DNA of 64,000 nucleotides, from the NCBI GenBank assembly GCA_016180645.1, contig JACPAV010000006.1:82604-146603 (forward strand), read 5' to 3'. Numbering within the stretch: the first letter of the stretch is position 1; each line of letters starts with the position of its first letter. The DNA comes from Nitrospirota bacterium (GTDB taxonomy: Bacteria > JACPQY01). The notes below the pieces were generated by a model that searched no databases, was not told the origin of the DNA, and was given only the letters and a program-made list of their open reading frames with translations. A program made the position numbers and the translations under genes. Positions 20,271 through 34,341 of the stretch are shown here, in pieces.

Positions 20271-22964
20271 ATGGTGCAGGGGCTGGGCGACGAACTAGAG
20301 TGGAAGACCCGGAAAAAGCGAATCGATCCGAGGCTGGATGCCTGCGACTGGAGATTACCCACGAAAGGGCAAGTGCCCCTTCGGACGCCGTACCGGACCG
20401 AGGAATACCCTACAGATAACGGGCCGGCAGATTACGCCCTGCATCTTGACGGGAAAGTTCTTGGGATCGTCGAGGCGAAGAAGGTAACACTCGGTCCGCA
20501 GAACGTTCTGACTCAAGCAGAGCGGTATGCACGCGGGGCCACCAATAACGGGTTCGATTTCAATGGACTGCGTGTACCGTTCCTCTATTCGACCAACGGT
20601 GAAGTGATCTGGTTCCATGATATCCGACATCCCCTAAACCGGTCCCGTCGCATCGCCGGATTCCACACGCCCGAAGCCCTAAAAGAGCAACTTGGCCGCG
20701 ATTTCGACGCCTCCTGCCGATGGTTTACGGAGAATGCGAATGCCCACCCAAGATTGCGCCCCTACCAAGTAGAGGCAAACACCGCCACGGAGCAGGCCAT
20801 CGCGAACCGGAAACGCGAAATGCTCGTGGCGATGGCCACGGGCTCCGGCAAGACGTTCACCATGGCGAATCAGATGTATCGATTCATGAAGTCCGGTGTA
20901 TCCAAGCGCATTCTTTTCCTGGTGGATCGGCGGGCGCTCGCCGCCCAAGCCGTTCGCACGCTCGCCTCATTCGAACCGGAACCCGGACAGAAGTTCGACA
21001 AGCTCTACGAGGTTTACAGCCAACGTTTCCACCGCGACGATCTCGACGAAGAGGAGAAATTCGATCCGGAAGTCCTTCCGTCAGACTACCTGCTGAAGCC
21101 CAGCCCCGATCACTCGTTCGTTTACGTCTGCACCATCCAGCGAATGGCGATAAATCTTTTTGGACGGAACGCGATTTTCGGCTCGGGCGACGAGGAAATC
21201 GACGAGGATGCCGATCACCTCGATATCCCTATCCACGCCTTCGATGTCGTCATCGCCGACGAGTGCCACCGAGGCTACACATCTCAAGAACTTTCGGTCT
21301 GGCGGAACACGCTCGACCACTTCGATGCGATCAAAATCGGCCTCACCGCCACACCCGCCGCGCACACGACGAGCTATTTCAAGGAAGTCGTCTTCCGATA
21401 TGAGTACGAACGAGCCGTCCGGGAGGGCTATCTCGTGGATTACGATCCCGTTGCCGTTCACTCCGATGTGCGGCTGCGCGGCGTGTTCGTCAAAGAAGGG
21501 GAGAAAGTTGAGAGGGTGGATACGGAGACCGGAAACGAGCAACTCGATCTCATGGAGGACGAGAGGCATTTCGACGTGCCGGAGGTGGAACAGCACGTCA
21601 CGTCTCCGGATTCCAATCGCAAGATCATTGAAGAACTCAAGAAACACGCCTTGGAGCATGAACAGAAATACGGGCGCTTTCCCAAGACGTTGATCTTCGC
21701 CGCAAACGACCTGCCGCACACCTCCCATGCCAATCAGCTCGTCGACATCTGCCGCCGGGCATTCGAACGGGGCGATGCCTTCGTTCAAAAGATCACGGGA
21801 TCGAAGGACGTCGACCGACCTCTCCAGCGCATCCGGGAATTCCGCAACCGTCCCCTTCCGGGTATCGTCGTCTCGGTCGACATGATGTCCACCGGGGTCG
21901 ACATCCCCGATCTGGAATTCATCGTTCTCCTTCGGCCCATCAAGTCCCGCATCCTTTTTGAGCAGATGCTGGGCCGGGGCACCCGGAAGGGCGAAAAACA
22001 TCCGGACAAATCCCATTTCACGGTATTCGACTGCTTCGGCGGTTCTCTTTTGGAATACTTCCGGAAGGCCACGGCAATTTCGGCCATCGCGCCGGAACGG
22101 GTGGCCCGGACCATCGAAGAGGTCATCAATGATGTCTGGAGCAACCGGGACCGCGAGTACAACATCTGTTGCCTGGTGAAGCGGCTTCAACGTATCAACA
22201 AGGAGATCGCGCCCGAGGGACGTGACAATCTGAAAGTTTTCTTGCCTGATGGCGATCTGGGCCGATACGCTCAAGGACTCCCCCACGCGCTCAATCAGGA
22301 TTTCGTTGCCACGATGAAGCTCTTACGCGATCCCGACTTTCAGAAACTCCTGACCGATTTCCCCCGACCGAAACGCGTCTTTTACGTGGCCATCGAGAGC
22401 CAGGACACCGTCAGCTCGGAAGTCCTCATCCGGGATGCGGTTGGAAACGAATGGACGCCGGGGGACTACATCAAGGCCTTCCACGCTTTTGTTCGGGAGA
22501 ATCCGGATCAGATCCAGGCGATTGGAATCCTCCTCAACCGACCCCAGGATTGGGGGATGGAGGCGCTCGTCGATCTTCAGAGCAAGCTGGCGGTCACCAA
22601 ACTGCGGTTCACTGTGAAGAACTTGCAGACGGCCTACGGCGCACGCTACAAGAAAGCCCTGGTGGACATCATCTCGATGATCAAGCATGCGGCACGCGAG
22701 GGGGAACCTCTCCTGACCGCCGAGGAGAGGGTTGAGAAGGTGTTCAACATCATCAGGTCGCGCTACGAATTCAGCTACGAACAACAGAATTGGCTCGCCA
22801 GAATCCGCGAGCATCTCGTGGCCAATTTGTCCATCGACCCGAAGGACTTCGACGAGATTCCTGTTCTCTCGCGCGAGGGAGGATGGCAGAAAGCCAGAGG
22901 TGTTTTCGAGAAGGGCCGGCTTCGCCAAATCCTCCAGGATTTCAACCAATCCATCGCCGCATGA
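20271..22964 (+). CDS. hsdR: Type I restriction enzyme, R (restriction/translocase) subunit
   Basis: 897 aa. The N-terminal nuclease has the PD-(D/E)XK residues Asp54 (GPADYAL) and Glu68-x-Lys70 (IVEAKK). The SF2 translocase follows: ATGSGKT at 189-195, DECHR at 330-334, GLTATPA, VSVDMMSTGVDIPDLE and EQMLGRGTR (motifs V-VI). The C-terminal ~250 aa is the family's HsdM-binding helical region. All catalytic motifs are intact. It cleaves unmodified DNA after ATP-driven translocation when bound to HsdM/HsdS. The stop overlaps the hsdM start (ATGA). Confidence 0.94.
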   Translation: MVQGLGDELEWKTRKKRIDPRLDACDWRLPTKGQVPLRTPYRTEEYPTDNGPADYALHLDGKVLGIVEAKKVTLGPQNVLTQAERYARGATNNGFDFNGLRVPFLYSTNGEVIWFHDIRHPLNRSRRIAGFHTPEALKEQLGRDFDASCRWFTENANAHPRLRPYQVEANTATEQAIANRKREMLVAMATGSGKTFTMANQMYRFMKSGVSKRILFLVDRRALAAQAVRTLASFEPEPGQKFDKLYEVYSQRFHRDDLDEEEKFDPEVLPSDYLLKPSPDHSFVYVCTIQRMAINLFGRNAIFGSGDEEIDEDADHLDIPIHAFDVVIADECHRGYTSQELSVWRNTLDHFDAIKIGLTATPAAHTTSYFKEVVFRYEYERAVREGYLVDYDPVAVHSDVRLRGVFVKEGEKVERVDTETGNEQLDLMEDERHFDVPEVEQHVTSPDSNRKIIEELKKHALEHEQKYGRFPKTLIFAANDLPHTSHANQLVDICRRAFERGDAFVQKITGSKDVDRPLQRIREFRNRPLPGIVVSVDMMSTGVDIPDLEFIVLLRPIKSRILFEQMLGRGTRKGEKHPDKSHFTVFDCFGGSLLEYFRKATAISAIAPERVARTIEEVINDVWSNRDREYNICCLVKRLQRINKEIAPEGRDNLKVFLPDGDLGRYAQGLPHALNQDFVATMKLLRDPDFQKLLTDFPRPKRVFYVAIESQDTVSSEVLIRDAVGNEWTPGDYIKAFHAFVRENPDQIQAIGILLNRPQDWGMEALVDLQSKLAVTKLRFTVKNLQTAYGARYKKALVDIISMIKHAAREGEPLLTAEERVEKVFNIIRSRYEFSYEQQNWLARIREHLVANLSIDPKDFDEIPVLSREGGWQKARGVFEKGRLRQILQDFNQSIAA

Positions 22965-24400
22965 GTGACGTCGTCCAAAAACTTTGGGGCTTTTGCCACA
23001 CCCTCCGTCACGACGGCATCAGCTACGGCGACTACATCGAACAAATCACCTATCTGCTCTTTCTGAAAATGGCCGACGAGAAGGACGTGAGAATTCCCAA
23101 AGCGTGCGCGTGGCCCGAACTTCGTGCCCAATCGGGCAGCGACCTTCTCGACGGCTACGTGGATATTCTCCGAAAGCTTGGGAAGGAGAAAGGCATCCTC
23201 GGTGATATCTACTCCTCCGCGCAGTCGCGGTTCCGGAATCCCGTCAATCTCAAGAAATTGATCAGTTTGATCGATGAGACGGAATGGACGGCGCTCGGCG
23301 TGGACGTGAAGGCCGAAGCCTACGAGGGCCTCCTGGAAAAAGCGGCCAGCGAGGGCAAGAAAGGAGCGGGGCAATACTTCACCCCGCGCATTCTGATCCA
23401 GTCGATTGTCCGTTGCATGAAACCCGATCCGAGGAAACACGCCGAGTTCACTATTTGCGATCCCGGCTGCGGAACGGGTGGATTTCTCGTGGCGGCGTAT
23501 GAATGGCTTGTCGGTCGAACAAAGGGCGGCGCGCTGGATCGCGAGATCGCAAAGCGAATTAGGGCGAAAACCTATTTCGGCCAGGACCTCGATCCCCAGC
23601 CGCGCCGTCTTGCCCTGATGAATCTCTATCTCCACGGTTTGGAGGCGGTCATCGCGCTGGGCGACTCAATCTACGAGCCACCGGGAAGTGAGAAGTTCGA
23701 TGTTGTCCTGACGAATCCACCTTTCGGGACGCGAGGCGCGAACCAAGCGCCGGACCGGGAAGATTTCACCGTGGCCACGTCGAATAAACAGCTCAATTTC
23801 GTCCAGCACGTCCTCACCATTCTGAAGCCCGGCGGTCGGGCGGCGATTGTGTTGCCGGACAATTGCTTGTTCGAGGATCAGGCCGGAGAGGTGATGAAAA
23901 TACTCACCGAGGATTGCGATCTCCATACGGTATTACGCTTGCCGCGTGGGACCTTCACCCCCTACAGCCAGGGCGTGAAGGCAAATGTTGTGTTTTTCAC
24001 CAAGGGATACGCGACGGAGACGGTATGGATTTACGACGCCCGAACGAACGTGCCGGGGATCACCAAGAAAGATCGCCCGCTCGCGCCGAAGCACTTCGAG
24101 GGATTCGAGAAGTGCTATGGCTCCGATCCGAATGGCCGTGGAAAACGGAATCCGACGGACTCGAAGGAGGATCGTTGGCGGAGCTTCCATATTTCAGATG
24201 TCAAAACCCACGATTTCAAGCTGGACAGCTTCAAATGGCTCAAGGAAGACTCCCTTGAGGACGCCGATGACCTCCCGGACCCAGAGGAACTCGTAGCCGA
24301 CGCCGTTTCCGAACTCAATGCCGCCATGAAGGATTTGAACAAGATCATGGCGTATCTTGAGAATGGAGAAGCGGTACCAAACAAACCGAAGGGGACATGA
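22961..24400 (+). CDS. hsdM: Type I restriction-modification DNA methyltransferase subunit
   Basis: 479 aa from the ATG that overlaps the hsdR stop. The N-terminal helical domain (LWGFCHTLRHDGISYGDYIE, LLFLKMADEKD) precedes the SAM-binding fold with GAGQYFTPR and DPGCGTGGFLVAAYEW. The catalytic motif is VVLTNPPFGTRG, NPPF being the adenine-N6 signature. It methylates the recognition sequence read by HsdS and completes the HsdR2M2S complex. The stop overlaps the hsdS start by 4 nt. Confidence 0.95.
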   Translation: MSDVVQKLWGFCHTLRHDGISYGDYIEQITYLLFLKMADEKDVRIPKACAWPELRAQSGSDLLDGYVDILRKLGKEKGILGDIYSSAQSRFRNPVNLKKLISLIDETEWTALGVDVKAEAYEGLLEKAASEGKKGAGQYFTPRILIQSIVRCMKPDPRKHAEFTICDPGCGTGGFLVAAYEWLVGRTKGGALDREIAKRIRAKTYFGQDLDPQPRRLALMNLYLHGLEAVIALGDSIYEPPGSEKFDVVLTNPPFGTRGANQAPDREDFTVATSNKQLNFVQHVLTILKPGGRAAIVLPDNCLFEDQAGEVMKILTEDCDLHTVLRLPRGTFTPYSQGVKANVVFFTKGYATETVWIYDARTNVPGITKKDRPLAPKHFEGFEKCYGSDPNGRGKRNPTDSKEDRWRSFHISDVKTHDFKLDSFKWLKEDSLEDADDLPDPEELVADAVSELNAAMKDLNKIMAYLENGEAVPNKPKGT

Positions 24401-25773
24401 TAGTTACAGCACCCAACTCGGCGACCGGCACTCCTTCGGCTCCGAGTCACTCTGAACTCCCCGAACGGTGGACAATTGCCAAGCTTCTGGAGGTTTGCGA
24501 GCTGAATCCGAAGAAGCCGGCGAGGAACGCCCTGCCGAAAACCGCTCCAGTATCATTCGTGCCAATGGCGGCGGTAGACGAGAAGGAGGGCGCGATTCGT
24601 ATAGTCCATGAGCGGGCATTCGCAAGCGTAAGGAATGGGTACACTGCCTTTCGTGAAGGCGACGTATTGATGGCAAAAATCACCCCGTGTATGGAGAATG
24701 GCAAAGCGGCTGTTGCCCGAGGCTTGAAGAATGGGATCGGTTTCGGATCAAGCGAATTCCATGTTCTCCGTCCGTCCCCGCAGGTGTTGCCTGAGTTCAT
24801 CTTTCACTTCATTCGGCAAGAATCGTTCAGAAGGCGCGCCGAAAATGAAATGACGGGTTCAGTGGGGCAAGAAAGGGTACCAACGGAATTCTTCGACGAT
24901 GTCGAGATTCCGTTTGCGCGCATATCAGACCAGAAGCGGCTTGTGGCGGTCGTTGAAACCCTGCTCGCCCAAGCCCATTCCGCCCGCGAACGTTTGGCGC
25001 GGGTGCGTGGAATAATGAAGCGCTTCCGTCAGTCCGTCCTCGCCGCCGCCTGCTCCGGCCGCCTCACCGCCGACTGGCGGGAGGAGGAGGCCGTGGCTTC
25101 AGAGATCGCTGACGAGCCTTGGCAATTCGAAAGCATCGCTTCTGTGTGCTCAGAGGTTGTCGACTGCCCACACTCAACTCCAAAGTGGGCCGACAGGGGC
25201 GAGATCTGTCTAAGAACCACAAATTTCACCATTGATGGGTTGGATCTTTCGACCGTACGGTACGTTTCGCGTGAGACCTACAGTCAGCGGGTGATCCGGC
25301 TAGAGCCGAGGCAGGACGACATTGTGTATAGCCGAGAAGGAGGAATCCTCGGAATAGCATGTATCATTCCAGCGGGCCTTCGCGCGTGCCTGGGTCAGCG
25401 GATGATGCTTATGCGTTGCAACCAGAAGACAATTCGGGCCAATTTTCTTTGCCATGTACTGAACTCCCCTCAGATGATGCATCGCGTAGTAGAACTCACC
25501 GGCGGGAGCGCTTCTCCGCATCTCAATGTAGGGGTCATTAAGAGGTTTCCAGTTCCATCTCCTCGACTAGAAGAGCAGGATGAAATTCTCCGTCGCGTCG
25601 AGTCCCTTTTCAGGCTCGCGGACAAAATCGAGGAGCGCGTTTCCACCGCCGCCGCCCGCGCCGACAAACTCACCCAATCCATCCTCGCCAAAGCCTTCCG
25701 CGGCGAACTTTTCCTCACGCATGCTGATTCAACCCATTGCGAACCGACCTCCGGACATGCAATTAAACGATGA
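24397..25773 (+). CDS. hsdS: Type I restriction-modification specificity subunit
   Basis: 458 aa with two target-recognition domains (about 20-195 and 235-415), each followed by a coiled-coil spacer (SDQKRLVAVVETLLAQAHSA and LEEQDEILRRVESLFRLADK). The tail LTQSILAKAFRGELF is the conserved end of HsdS. Two intact domains imply a bipartite recognition site, which cannot be predicted from sequence. It converges on the SIR2-like gene with only 6 nt between stops. Confidence 0.94.
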   Translation: MIVTAPNSATGTPSAPSHSELPERWTIAKLLEVCELNPKKPARNALPKTAPVSFVPMAAVDEKEGAIRIVHERAFASVRNGYTAFREGDVLMAKITPCMENGKAAVARGLKNGIGFGSSEFHVLRPSPQVLPEFIFHFIRQESFRRRAENEMTGSVGQERVPTEFFDDVEIPFARISDQKRLVAVVETLLAQAHSARERLARVRGIMKRFRQSVLAAACSGRLTADWREEEAVASEIADEPWQFESIASVCSEVVDCPHSTPKWADRGEICLRTTNFTIDGLDLSTVRYVSRETYSQRVIRLEPRQDDIVYSREGGILGIACIIPAGLRACLGQRMMLMRCNQKTIRANFLCHVLNSPQMMHRVVELTGGSASPHLNVGVIKRFPVPSPRLEEQDEILRRVESLFRLADKIEERVSTAAARADKLTQSILAKAFRGELFLTHADSTHCEPTSGHAIKR

Positions 25774-25779
25774 GGCAGA

Positions 25780-26871
25780 TCACGCAGCCGAATTGGTGCT
25801 TTGGGAAAGGACCTGGCGACAAAGATCGGAAAATGTCTTATAGATTGTCACTCCGTTCGCGGATCGGCCGCGGAAGAACTTCTTCATCTTTTTCTGGACG
25901 CAATCGGAAGGATCCACCACCACGATTCTACGGTACTTTGTATTCTTATCATTCATCGCCTTTGAGAGAATTGCCCGAAGATGGAAATCGGTTGAGATGA
26001 GGGAACATCCGATGATTACAATCTGATCTGCGTCCTTTGCGGCTCCGTATGTAGCTATCCATAGCTTCCGCCAGAATTGGTTCCTAAAGAATTTCGAATA
26101 GAGCGGCGGAACAAAGAGGCGTACCAATCGTTGCGCCTTCCTTTCATTTACCATTGGGAGTGCAGTCATTCGGATCTCAGAAACAGGGCGACGTTCAAGC
26201 ACTTCTTCGAGATTCTTGGAGTTCCCTTTAGCGAACCAGTTAAGTGACCCGTGGGGCTTGAGAAGCCGCACACTTATGAGATGCACTTGCTGGCCATACT
26301 GGGGGACTGAGATTTCACTGCTTAGTCTTGCGGAAAAGCCGTACCCTTTTCGAGGATTCCAGCCCGCCGTAAATAACGCGTTGTCTACAAGCGTGTCATA
26401 GTTGAGGGAGACGATCACATCATGCGGTTGTAGCGAACGTGCGAGAAGATCGTGATGTTGAATGCCATCCCGAGGACGACAAGTCTTTTGAACAAAACGG
26501 AACAAGTGGATCAACAGATTGAGAAAATCTCTAATTTCGGGCCTGTACCCTACCGATGTTTTTCTGCCTCTCCCCTTATGAAAGATTTCCGGCAGATCTT
26601 TGGAGATAAAGAGGATGCTAAAGACTTCCTCCATGGTCGGTTGGCGGAAGCCTTTCGGTCCGACCTCGTGGTTCACGAAATCAGCAAGCCGGTCGTAGGC
26701 GGCTCTATGCGTTTGGCCGTCATTCGTCCGAATGTATTTTCTGAGCACTTCAAAGAAATCGCCATTAAGGGGGGCAGTTACCCGAGGGGAATGCGTCCCT
26801 CTAAGTGCACCTTTCGTCGCGCCGGCGCCAAGGACGATCAACGTCTTTGAGTTGCGACCATTGATGATCAC
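25780..26871 (-). CDS. SIR2-like (putative NADase) protein
   Basis: 363 aa from GTG 26871, chosen because a GAGGGAG ribosome-binding site lies 6 nt upstream. SIR2-family features are the Gly-rich NAD loop LIVLGAGATKGAL, the motif SLNYDTLVDNALF, KPHGSLNWF and the late VIIGCSLISTDFHLRAIL. This is the layout of the standalone SIR2-like proteins found in several anti-phage systems, where they deplete NAD+. It is preceded by three tiny HTH genes on the same strand. It converges with hsdS. Function in defence is inferred from family and island context. Confidence 0.78.
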   Translation of the reverse strand: MIINGRNSKTLIVLGAGATKGALRGTHSPRVTAPLNGDFFEVLRKYIRTNDGQTHRAAYDRLADFVNHEVGPKGFRQPTMEEVFSILFISKDLPEIFHKGRGRKTSVGYRPEIRDFLNLLIHLFRFVQKTCRPRDGIQHHDLLARSLQPHDVIVSLNYDTLVDNALFTAGWNPRKGYGFSARLSSEISVPQYGQQVHLISVRLLKPHGSLNWFAKGNSKNLEEVLERRPVSEIRMTALPMVNERKAQRLVRLFVPPLYSKFFRNQFWRKLWIATYGAAKDADQIVIIGCSLISTDFHLRAILSKAMNDKNTKYRRIVVVDPSDCVQKKMKKFFRGRSANGVTIYKTFSDLCRQVLSQSTNSAA

Positions 26872-26940
26872 TGCAACTCCCTCACCCGTCCGAAACCACA
26901 AGACGGCGTAAGCGCAACCGCATCATGAACAGCCAGCGGC

Positions 26941-27743: not shown

Positions 27744-27866
27744 TTACCGGCGAAGGTCATCCATCCGGTCCCGCAGGCAGGTGAGGAGCCGGATCAGGGC
27801 CTCCGGGCTCATGTCTCCCCCATCCCCGAACGGAAGTCTCCGATTGGCGCTCCGCCGCCGGCTCAC
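27744..27866 (-). CDS. 40-aa basic helical protein, third paralogue of the small-protein family
   Basis: The GTG start at 27866 overlaps the stop of the upstream gene (GTGA) and the frame ends at TAA 27744-27746. The protein (VSRRRSANRR... then MSPEALIRLLTCLRDRMDDLRR) has a basic N-terminus and one amphipathic helix. That helix aligns with AEDLIQILTIVRDRVNGMER of the 81-aa protein at 29645-29890. The overlapping start and the paralogy support it being real despite its size. Confidence 0.5.
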   Translation of the reverse strand: MSRRRSANRRLPFGDGGDMSPEALIRLLTCLRDRMDDLRR

Positions 27867-28294
27867 GGGAACCCTGCGGCAGAAGACCTTCGGAGAGGGC
27901 CGATCCCGGCGCTTTGAGGCGGTTTCCGGTCGACGACACCCATTTCCGTTTCAGCGCTCAGGACGATAGGATCCTTTCTCCATTCCTCTTCATCCTTGAG
28001 CTTCTCAAGCCCCCACCGCCGTCCCCGGTCGATAGGCTTCCTCCCGTCGTCGCTCAGGCCGCTGAACAGCCGCCAAGCCGTCTCCTGAACCAAGTCCTGC
28101 GCACGGACCACGTAATCCCGCGCCCAGTACCAAGGAACATCGCGGTGCTTGAGGAGATCGATCCATTTCCCAAGGGAAGTAGGCTGCCGGCGCAGGGTTT
28201 GAAGGCTCTCCATCTCGGACCAAGGATCGAAGGATGGGGCCGATGGCTTCGACCGCCTCCCTCCGATCCGGCCTTTCGTTGCACGTCTACCCAC
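27863..28294 (-). CDS. Small basic protein, paralogue of the 81-aa protein
   Basis: 143 aa from GTG 28294. This start lies within the last codons of the EVE fragment, exactly as the 81-aa gene starts inside the end of the nuclease-EVE gene; both junctions read GTGGGTA. The N-terminus (VGRRATKGRIGGRRSKPSAP) aligns with VGKRTNQGRGSGRRPKRSAP of the other copy. The middle is helical and hydrophilic (GKWIDLLKHRDVPWYWARDY). Function unknown; retention of the overlap suggests a partner of the EVE protein. Confidence 0.55.
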   Translation of the reverse strand: MGRRATKGRIGGRRSKPSAPSFDPWSEMESLQTLRRQPTSLGKWIDLLKHRDVPWYWARDYVVRAQDLVQETAWRLFSGLSDDGRKPIDRGRRWGLEKLKDEEEWRKDPIVLSAETEMGVVDRKPPQSAGIGPLRRSSAAGFP

Positions 28295-28625: not shown

Positions 28626-28901
28626 TCAAAGAGTTGTACCCACCGCCCAATACGTGACCGTGAGGCCGCACTTGAAGAAAGTCGCCTTCATCTCCGCCGC
28701 TGCGTCGCTCGGCCAGTAGCCGCCGACTTCTACCGTGAACTCGGCTTCAGCGCCACCTACCCCGTCCTTTGCCTCCGAGACGGCGAGAGGACCTTGGAAC
28801 GCGTACCGCAATGTTGTGTGGGAGGATTCCGCCAGGCGGCGCTGAATGTCCGCAACTTTCTCCGGCGTTGGATACGGTTTGAACTGGACGAGGAGTTTCA
28901 T
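28626..28901 (-). CDS. Hypothetical 91-aa protein
   Basis: The ATG at 28901 overlaps the stop of the phosphoesterase gene (ATGA), so the two are probably translationally coupled. The protein starts MKLLVQFKPYPTPEKVADIQ and contains alternating strands and helices (AEFTVEVGGYW, AEMKATFFKCG), like a small ferredoxin-like alpha/beta fold. No family is recognised. Confidence 0.55.
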   Translation of the reverse strand: MKLLVQFKPYPTPEKVADIQRRLAESSHTTLRYAFQGPLAVSEAKDGVGGAEAEFTVEVGGYWPSDAAAEMKATFFKCGLTVTYWAVGTTL

Positions 28902-29644: not shown

Positions 29645-29890
29645 TCAATGCTTGGAGGAACCCGCATCGACCCGACGCTGGAGGGACATCGCCATCTCCA
29701 GCGCGTACTGGACACGATCCCGGAGTTGGACCCACTGGCGATGCACTCTCTCCATCCCGTTCACTCGGTCGCGAACAATGGTCAAGATCTGGATCAGATC
29801 CTCCGCGTCGAACTCCTCATCCAAGGGAGGAGGGGCCGACCGTTTCGGCCGCCTCCCACTACCCCGCCCTTGGTTCGTTCTCTTACCCAC
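29645..29890 (-). CDS. Small basic/helical protein of the EVE-nuclease cassette
   Basis: 81 aa. The GTG start at 29890 overlaps the end of the nuclease-EVE gene by 8 nt (GTGGGTAA). The N-terminus is basic (RTNQGRGSGRRPKRSAPPP), followed by two amphipathic helices (DAEDLIQILTIVRDRVNGME, LRDRVQYALEMAMSLQRRV), suggesting a nucleic-acid-contacting tail plus a coiled coil. It has paralogues at 27863-28294 (N-terminus) and 27744-27866 (helix). Function unknown, probably an accessory subunit. Confidence 0.65.
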   Translation of the reverse strand: MGKRTNQGRGSGRRPKRSAPPPLDEEFDAEDLIQILTIVRDRVNGMERVHRQWVQLRDRVQYALEMAMSLQRRVDAGSSKH

Positions 29891-31025
29891 GGCTGGTGAG
29901 GATCTCGAAGTCCTTGGGGGAGATCCGCCGTGTCATCTTGAGGAACCACCCCCAGGACCCTTCCGGGTTCCGACCCTCGAACGCATCGAGCTCGGCACGC
30001 ACCTTCGCGTTGAGCACCTTGGGTTGCTCGACGTACAGGTGGACATCACCCAGCCGGATGCCCCAAGGATACTTCTCCGGGATAGGCACCTCGGCGTGGA
30101 GCCCCTTTTCCGGCCTGGAGGCGATTCGGGCATGGGCAACCGCCCCCACGCCGCAGGCGTAGAAACAGATCTGATCGTTCTCCTTCATCTGCCTCCGGGC
30201 GGGGGACCGGTCCCCAAGGGCGAACACGCGCCCGACACCCACGAGGGAGCGGATGATCTCGGTGGCCTTCGATCCATTCGATCCGACCGGGGCCAGCCAG
30301 CAGGTAGGCTCATCGGCGGTGACCACCTTTTCAGTGGAGGGAGCCAATGCCGGCTTGGGGAGGGTGTCCGGCTCCCGGCGGGCCATCAGGCGGGCGAGGA
30401 GGTCCACCACGGGGTCGACGTCCGGCGTGGAAGGCCGGAGGATGGCCAGTACATCCTCATGGGTGGCCTCCTGCTCGTCCACCATCTCCGCGAGGGAGAG
30501 GAGGGATTCGACGGAGGCCACTCGGAGTTGATGGGTCCTCTTTTCTGCGATGATGGCGTTCTCAAGCTGTCGCACCTGGGGATCGGGCCGTCCGACGACA
30601 TACAGCCCCAGGGCGTGGTCCCAGCCGGGTATGACCCCTTGGGAGATGAGTTCATCCACGTACCCCACCAAGGCGGAGGTCTTGATGGCATAGGTTTCGG
30701 AGGTCTTCACCTCGATGACGAGGGAGAACCCTCCGGGAGATTTCCAGAGGCCGTCGAAGCCGACCTCTCCCCGGCCCCCGTTGTACCGGCCATAGGCGAC
30801 ATCGAACCCGAGGAGTTCCCCCAAACGGACCACCATATCCTGGAGCGCCCGGCTGGGCTGTTCGCCGGTCTCGCCGAGGCATTCCTCGATGTAGTCCCGG
30901 AGCTGGCCTACCTCCATGACGTTGCTCCGCAGATAGGACCGGAACCGCTCGCGCGGGGTGTTTTCGCCGGGGCTGTCGTCCAGCCTCCCGGCGAGGTCGA
31001 GTATCCGTTTCAAGCTGATCATCAT
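29883..31025 (-). CDS. PD-(D/E)XK nuclease fused to an EVE-like modified-base-binding domain
   Basis: 380 aa, with a strong ribosome-binding site (AAAGGAGG) before ATG 31025. Residues about 60-170 look like a restriction-endonuclease fold: Asp91 (GEVGFDGLW) and Glu105-x-Lys107 (SLVIEVKTSE), followed by beta-strands HALGLYVVGR. Residues about 240-380 resemble an EVE/PUA-like domain: TCWLAPVG at its start, KENDQICFYACG, HARIAS, EKYPWGIRL and the final SPKDFEILT. EVE domains read modified DNA bases, so a modification-dependent (type IV-like) restriction enzyme is inferred. It heads the minus-strand cassette. The EVE call is by eye and needs a profile search. Confidence 0.7.
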   Translation of the reverse strand: MMISLKRILDLAGRLDDSPGENTPRERFRSYLRSNVMEVGQLRDYIEECLGETGEQPSRALQDMVVRLGELLGFDVAYGRYNGGRGEVGFDGLWKSPGGFSLVIEVKTSETYAIKTSALVGYVDELISQGVIPGWDHALGLYVVGRPDPQVRQLENAIIAEKRTHQLRVASVESLLSLAEMVDEQEATHEDVLAILRPSTPDVDPVVDLLARLMARREPDTLPKPALAPSTEKVVTADEPTCWLAPVGSNGSKATEIIRSLVGVGRVFALGDRSPARRQMKENDQICFYACGVGAVAHARIASRPEKGLHAEVPIPEKYPWGIRLGDVHLYVEQPKVLNAKVRAELDAFEGRNPEGSWGWFLKMTRRISPKDFEILTSRG

Positions 31026-33728: not shown

Positions 33729-33962
33729 ATGAGTTTGCCAGGCCGAATTGCCGTTGATCCCAATTACTGTGGCGGGCGGCCCCATTTCCGGGGCACGCGA
33801 GTACCGGTCTATGTGGTGTTGGAGATGCTCGCGAATCGCGAGGACACGAATGAAATTCTATCCGAATATCCCAATCTTACCGCCGAGGATCTCCGGGACG
33901 CGCTTGTGTACGCCAAGCAACTGGCTGAGATTCCGGGAGCGCCGTTAGCCGTCGGCTCCTGA
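33729..33962 (+). CDS. DUF433 antitoxin
   Basis: 77 aa. The winged-helix DUF433 signature is complete: IAVDPNYCGGRPHFRGTRVP at the start, then VVLEMLANREDTNEILSEYP and NLTAEDLRDALVYAKQ. DUF433 proteins pair with PIN-like DUF5615 toxins, and such a gene follows 34 nt downstream. It probably binds its own promoter. Confidence 0.85.
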   Translation: MSLPGRIAVDPNYCGGRPHFRGTRVPVYVVLEMLANREDTNEILSEYPNLTAEDLRDALVYAKQLAEIPGAPLAVGS

Positions 33963-33996
33963 TCGCCGATCTCTGCATACGGCCCGAGCGGTCGCC

Positions 33997-34341
33997 GTGA
34001 AGATCATCGTCGACAACAACCTGCCAGCCAGTCTCGCTCACCTAATCCGTTCGGCCGGCTTCGACGCATCGCATGTTGTTGAGATCGGAATGGGATCTGC
34101 GAGTGACGCCGAGATACGCCGGAAATACGATCAGGAGAATATCATCTTCGTTTCTCGCGATTCCGATTTCTGGTTTCAGCGGCCGAAAGGTTGGTCAGTA
34201 GCTTGGATATCCGTTCACAACCCCACGCTTGCCCAATTGCGGGGACCCATCGCCCAGCGACTGAAGGAAGCATTGCCGAGAATGACGCCGGGGTCGAGGA
34301 TGATGGTGACGGAGCAGGCGGTGGTCTTCTACAGCGGCTAG
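33997..34341 (+). CDS. DUF5615 PIN-like toxin
   Basis: 114 aa from GTG 33997. It begins MKIIVDNNLPASLAHLIRSA with the PIN-like Asp and Asn, and continues with EIGMGSASDAEI and FVSRDSDFWF, where the second acidic cluster sits. The family (Mut7-C/PIN-like) acts as the toxin partner of DUF433 proteins; RNase activity is assumed from the fold. It forms a two-gene module with 33729-33962. Confidence 0.85.
   Translation: MKIIVDNNLPASLAHLIRSAGFDASHVVEIGMGSASDAEIRRKYDQENIIFVSRDSDFWFQRPKGWSVAWISVHNPTLAQLRGPIAQRLKEALPRMTPGSRMMVTEQAVVFYSG

Follow-up and report, generated by a model that had tools for sequence, protein, structure and literature searches.

A PD-(D/E)XK nuclease-EVE fusion protein of a Nitrospirota bacterium, probably a modification-dependent restriction enzyme of an unannotated family

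The window (the whole 64,000-nucleotide stretch of Nitrospirota DNA that was analysed) carries a real gene encoding a 380-residue protein that combines a nuclease half and an EVE half in one chain, as the original prediction, made from the sequence alone, had noted (Table 1). We propose, with a probability of roughly 0.7, that this protein cleaves DNA on its own, as an NTP-independent, modification-dependent (type IV-like) endonuclease acting against modified phages or plasmids. The C-terminal EVE domain would flip out and bind a modified base; the N-terminal FokI/BspD6I-like PD-(D/E)XK domain would then cut the DNA nearby, probably as a dimer; and the cell would be guarded against phages or plasmids that evade ordinary restriction by modification of their DNA. 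The proposal is directly supported by the modelled nuclease fold, the intact active-site residues, the identity of the EVE domain, the fusion itself, the conservation of both halves in relatives and the location of some of these relatives in restriction operons. From there, we infer the use of DNA as substrate, the base flipping, the dimerisation, the kind of base that would be read and the anti-phage role.

Table 1. Positions of the features discussed in the text (window coordinates unless a locus name is given).
Feature	Position	Strand	Evidence or remark
PD-(D/E)XK nuclease-EVE fusion protein, 380 aa	29883..31025	-	ORF with ATG and ribosome-binding site; full-length homologues at 49-54% identity
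Nuclease domain, residues 1-205, FokI/BspD6I/HindIII-like fold	30411..31025	-	model pLDDT about 70-90 over most; VIA Z 11.6-13.4
D91, predicted metal ligand	30753..30755	-	invariant in all 11 non-degenerate homologues
E105-V-K107, predicted catalytic E-x-K	30705..30713	-	invariant in all 11 non-degenerate homologues
EVE domain of the PUA superfamily, residues 240-378	29892..30308	-	profile-profile comparison, sub-threshold PF01878 in homologues, fold comparison
YPW motif, residues 319-321, candidate base-pocket aromatics	30063..30071	-	conservation; pocket role inferred
Small basic, probably helical protein, 81 aa	29645..29890	-	GTG start overlaps nuclease-EVE stop codon
Calcineurin-like metallophosphoesterase, 240 aa	28898..29620	-	PF00149 E 1e-15; motifs intact by eye
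91-aa ORF	28626..28901	-	overlaps phosphoesterase stop by ATGA; no significant Pfam match
Second nuclease-EVE gene, reduced to its last 107 EVE residues	28287..28610	-	begins right after in-frame TAG
ORF 3' of remnant, same overlapping start	27863..28294	-	start resembles that of the 81-aa protein
Three tandem small HTH ORFs, 65-78 aa	26941-27620	-	adjoin SIR2-like gene
SIR2-like defence-type protein	25780-26901	-	weak SIR2_2 and PADLOC SIR2/Aga_SIR2; converges on hsdS and abuts it
Type I restriction-modification operon hsdRMS, outside cassette	20271..25773	+	PADLOC/Pfam
Degenerate-clade loci	L012:4-2634, L018:95-2664, L059:200-2141		

The gene lies on the minus strand, which the original prediction had left unspecified, and its ATG start is closely preceded by the ribosome-binding site AAAGGAGGT. 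Its full-length homologues (49-54% identity) occur in a Bryobacteraceae metagenome-assembled genome (L003), in a Planctomycetota one (L004) and in a further genome from the phylum of L003 (L011/L024). Together with its distant members, the family was found in 9 of the 396 genomes sampled around the phylum of L003 and in 2 of the 392 sampled around that of L004. The host phylum is a sparsely sampled lineage, for which only two genomes could be searched; the one that has the gene is the host itself. As to mobile elements, two contigs matched in the viral-contig scans, by the nuclease domain only, with another C-terminus; neither the alignment-based viral scan nor the phages scanned gave a match to the family; and the sole match in the plasmid scan was a 109-residue archaeal ORF. 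Searched alone, the window protein matched nothing in Pfam or NCBIfam, its sole PADLOC match was to a weak, sub-significant model, and PDB sequences searched with phmmer and with profiles yielded nothing relevant to it.

The N-terminal half adopts a PD-(D/E)XK fold with intact active-site residues, according to the structural model and the following lines of evidence. First, the AlphaFold model of residues 1-200 mostly has a pLDDT of about 70-92, the loop 82-88 excepted, and its helix 55-71, its strands 75-78, 92-95 and 101-107 and its helix 116-128 follow the PD-(D/E)XK order. Second, the D91, E105 and K107 residues, which are present exactly where the original prediction had placed them (D91 begins DGLW and E105 begins EVKT), lie in this model on the strands where the fold expects them, and they are invariant in 11 of the 14 homologues of the family alignment. 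Third, the absence of a nuclease fold had been set beforehand as a possible refutation, and VIA-align of residues 1-217 gave instead Z-scores of 13.4 to both N.BspD6I and HindIII, 11.7 to FokI and 11.6 to R.BspD6I2, whereas the rows that follow drop to a Z of about 8. The Foldseek E-values obtained with the nuclease model are merely suggestive, the best being 3.4e-3.

The C-terminal half (about 240-378) is an EVE domain by several lines of evidence, among which are profile-profile comparison and fold ranking, in agreement with the EVE/PUA-like pattern originally noticed. A profile of six EVE-half sequences aligned by hhalign to a profile of 20 canonical EVE domains from the phylum of L003 with a probability of 94.9% over 121 columns (E 4.6e-8 for one comparison), as against at most 1.1% for column shuffles and 0.1% for the nuclease half compared with the EVE profile. 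The equivalent region of three homologues has sub-threshold PF01878 matches (E 0.052, 0.017 and 0.022), and neither the window protein nor the homologues reached the Pfam gathering score for EVE. The separate model of the domain is of low confidence (pLDDT 57) and, used alone in Foldseek, it gave no significant match; in VIA-align, its top rows are the EVE domains 2p5d, 1wmm, 2g2x and VcaM4I 6yex (Z 4.9), along with YTH domains, at Z 4-5.6 over about 110-117 of the 143 residues, a ranking that we take as supporting evidence only because the Z-scores are low. The canonical EVE motif W-x-GVRN is absent from the window EVE half, so that the base pocket may be altered, and this absence, together with the low confidence of the EVE model (best Z 5.6), counts against our proposal. 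Candidate pocket aromatics may be provided by the YPW motif, which occurs in the window protein, in L003, in L011, in the re-framed L004 sequence and in the second EVE copy of the window, and is lost in the degenerate clade described below. The loop carrying YPW is presumably, by 2eve numbering, the loop that bears the pocket aromatic Y82/W82. This aromatic has been named for known EVE domains (PMC7897488). Taken as a whole, the original prediction of a modification-dependent restriction enzyme is sustained by the domain calls and by the existence of an EVE-PD-(D/E)XK class (PMC7641849), and is no more than a conjecture as regards a specificity for modified cytosine, given the missing W-x-GVRN motif and the m6A-reading YTH domains among the closest folds.

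The nuclease core is a module common to the EVE branch and to a sister clade (L010, L013, L014, L015, L016 and L006), which has the same nuclease domain followed by a different conserved C-terminal domain, and the latter, on profile-profile comparison, proved not to be EVE. Members of both branches occur inside or beside restriction-modification-like operons. In the EVE branch, L004 is part of an Hma-like operon with an HmaC-like gene (307 bits), an HmaA/DpdE-like helicase and an HmaB-like fragment, with the EVE stop codon (frameshift allowed for) lying 1 nt upstream of the HmaC ATG. We also observed a frameshift or sequencing error within the EVE region of this Planctomycetota homologue (L004:8924-8942). 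In the sister clade, the nuclease L028 directly follows HmaC (1004 bits), L027 lies after a type III restriction system and before a GajA/OLD-like gene, and L006, which is on a viral contig, is flanked by terminase and portal-like genes, as judged by eye from the translations. The Hma-adjacent EVE homologue and the HmaC- and type III-adjacent nuclease relatives count in favor of our proposal. No recognised defence genes were found near the L003 and L011/L024 loci. Of the 3 close homologues that are full-length and keep their active site, 2 (L003 and L011) are thus devoid of recognised defence neighbours, and this counts against it.

Three homologues have taken another course. L012, L018 and L059, which come from three genomes within a single Acidobacteriota order, group together with support of 98/99 and have a degenerate active site (K107 is replaced by R or Q, D91 and E105 are lost in L018, and D91 is changed to E in L059), despite which the EVE region is kept. 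EVE-region matches occur in 3 of the 149 genomes of that order, and all three are these degenerate members. Each of them has a homologous gene upstream, about -4 to 20 nt away; these upstream genes share 37-45% mutual identity over their alignable part, and that of L012 matches RskA_C (E 5e-10; anti-sigma-like). We hypothesise that this clade has a regulatory role. It is conceivable, if doubtful, that in this lineage a dead nuclease became a sensor of modified nucleic acids operating with an RskA-type protein and, more broadly, that the core is a swappable-sensor module recruited by several restriction-modification-like systems. If true, a former restriction enzyme would now serve in signalling or gene control, and the dead-site clade, with its anti-sigma-like neighbour, is a concrete case in which this can be tested.

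The proximity of relatives to methylation-based systems also bears on an alternative that we regard as unlikely, i.e., that the protein is an accessory effector, whose EVE domain would read the methylation (for example N6-methyladenine) deposited by the methyltransferases of a neighbouring type I, type III or Hma system, and whose nuclease would be released upon attack on that system. Relatives embedded in Hma or adjoining type III restriction, and the presence of m6A-reading YTH domains among the closest folds, are in line with this alternative; nevertheless, 2 of the 3 close homologues have no recognised methyltransferase alongside, and the window copy, equipped with a ribosome-binding site of its own, is about 4 kb away from the hsdRMS operon, in the opposite orientation and with a different GC content. 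The same arrangement leaves as a conjecture the original suggestion that the enzyme complements the neighbouring type I system, since the SIR2-like gene and the three HTH genes lie between them and the operon has the lower GC content (0.56-0.57, as compared with about 0.65 for the nuclease-EVE gene and about 0.50 for the SIR2-like gene). From these GC differences, the nuclease-EVE gene, hsdRMS and the SIR2-like gene look like separate acquisitions. We considered, and rejected, the type I operon and the nuclease-EVE cassette as one acquired unit, in view of the separating genes, the opposite strands and the GC difference. Our preferred reading, a stand-alone type IV-like endonuclease, is favored by the fact that the cassette has no methyltransferase. 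Modification-dependent enzymes usually have no methyltransferase alongside. Farther away, at 33729-34341 on the plus strand, there is a small pair that resembles by eye a DUF433/DUF5615 toxin-antitoxin-like module.

The downstream genes have a bearing on a second alternative, to which we give a rather slim chance, namely an abortive-infection toxin whose EVE domain would sense a modified nucleotide or an RNA signal and whose nuclease would damage the nucleic acid of the host; the small overlapping protein would be its partner or inhibitor. The remnant of a second nuclease-EVE gene, which shares about 53% protein identity with the window gene (65-73% at the DNA level in alignable stretches), is an old or separately acquired copy in view of that identity; being truncated and starting just past a TAG, it was discarded as a functional gene. 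The ORF that follows it shares 30% identity over 86 residues (E 0.003) with the 81-residue protein, so that the translational overlap with a small protein recurs after the truncated copy, as the toxin alternative would have it, and EVE domains are also found in toxin-antitoxin contexts (PMC7641849). However, the small protein, the phosphoesterase and the 91-residue ORF had no match at the loci of the relatives. The small protein therefore cannot be a family-wide antitoxin, and both it and the phosphoesterase are local neighbours outside any conserved arrangement. That the gene is a defence remnant in the course of local decay, by now functionless, is very improbable, for, in spite of the truncated, stop-bearing second copy in the same cluster and the frameshifted or mis-assembled EVE region of L004, the window ORF is intact, and neither its ribosome-binding site nor any catalytic or EVE-conserved residue has been lost.

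As a putative stand-alone endonuclease with an EVE sensor, the protein can be compared with several known systems. FokI, N.BspD6I and HindIII have in common with residues 1-217 the fold of their nuclease domains (Z 11.6-13.4), but they are only 9-20% identical to the window nuclease, their recognition is sequence-specific and they have no EVE domain. Shedu (SduA) gives a weaker fold match than BspD6I (Z 7.8 versus 13.4), and the window protein has no Pfam or PADLOC Shedu (DUF4263) match. No McrB-type GTPase partner, as in McrBC or CoCoNuT, was found among the scanned window proteins. As for Hma and the DUF499-centred BREX-related systems (PMC12839542), the resemblance is through relatives only, which lie directly beside HmaC (L004 and L028), whereas none of the ten window proteins scanned around the nuclease-EVE gene is HmaA, HmaB or HmaC; standalone EVE proteins have been reported with a COG1743-DUF499-SNF2 operon (PMC7641849). 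BrxU, which lies beside BREX, is comparable as a type IV enzyme that adjoins a methylation-based defence system, the two giving complementary protection (PMC8565348), but it is a GmrSD-family protein with other domains. VcaM4I, in which EVE flips 5mC/5hmC and directs the fused nuclease (PMC7897488), likewise joins an EVE modification sensor to a nuclease, but its EVE domain is N-terminal and its nuclease is HNH, whereas the window nuclease is PD-(D/E)XK. The closest counterparts are the EVE-PD(D/E)XK fusions, already on record as putative type IV restriction enzymes, with the same two domains in one chain and EVE in either position (Bell 2020, PMC7641849); the window family, which passes no Pfam, NCBIfam or PADLOC cut-off, may itself be within that set. 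These fusions, VcaM4I and BrxU are precedents in favor of our proposal, which is drawn by analogy with them. Hence, the type of fusion is already described and the window gene most likely represents an unannotated family of that type, thereby adding a nuclease-EVE family to the modification-dependent restriction enzymes.
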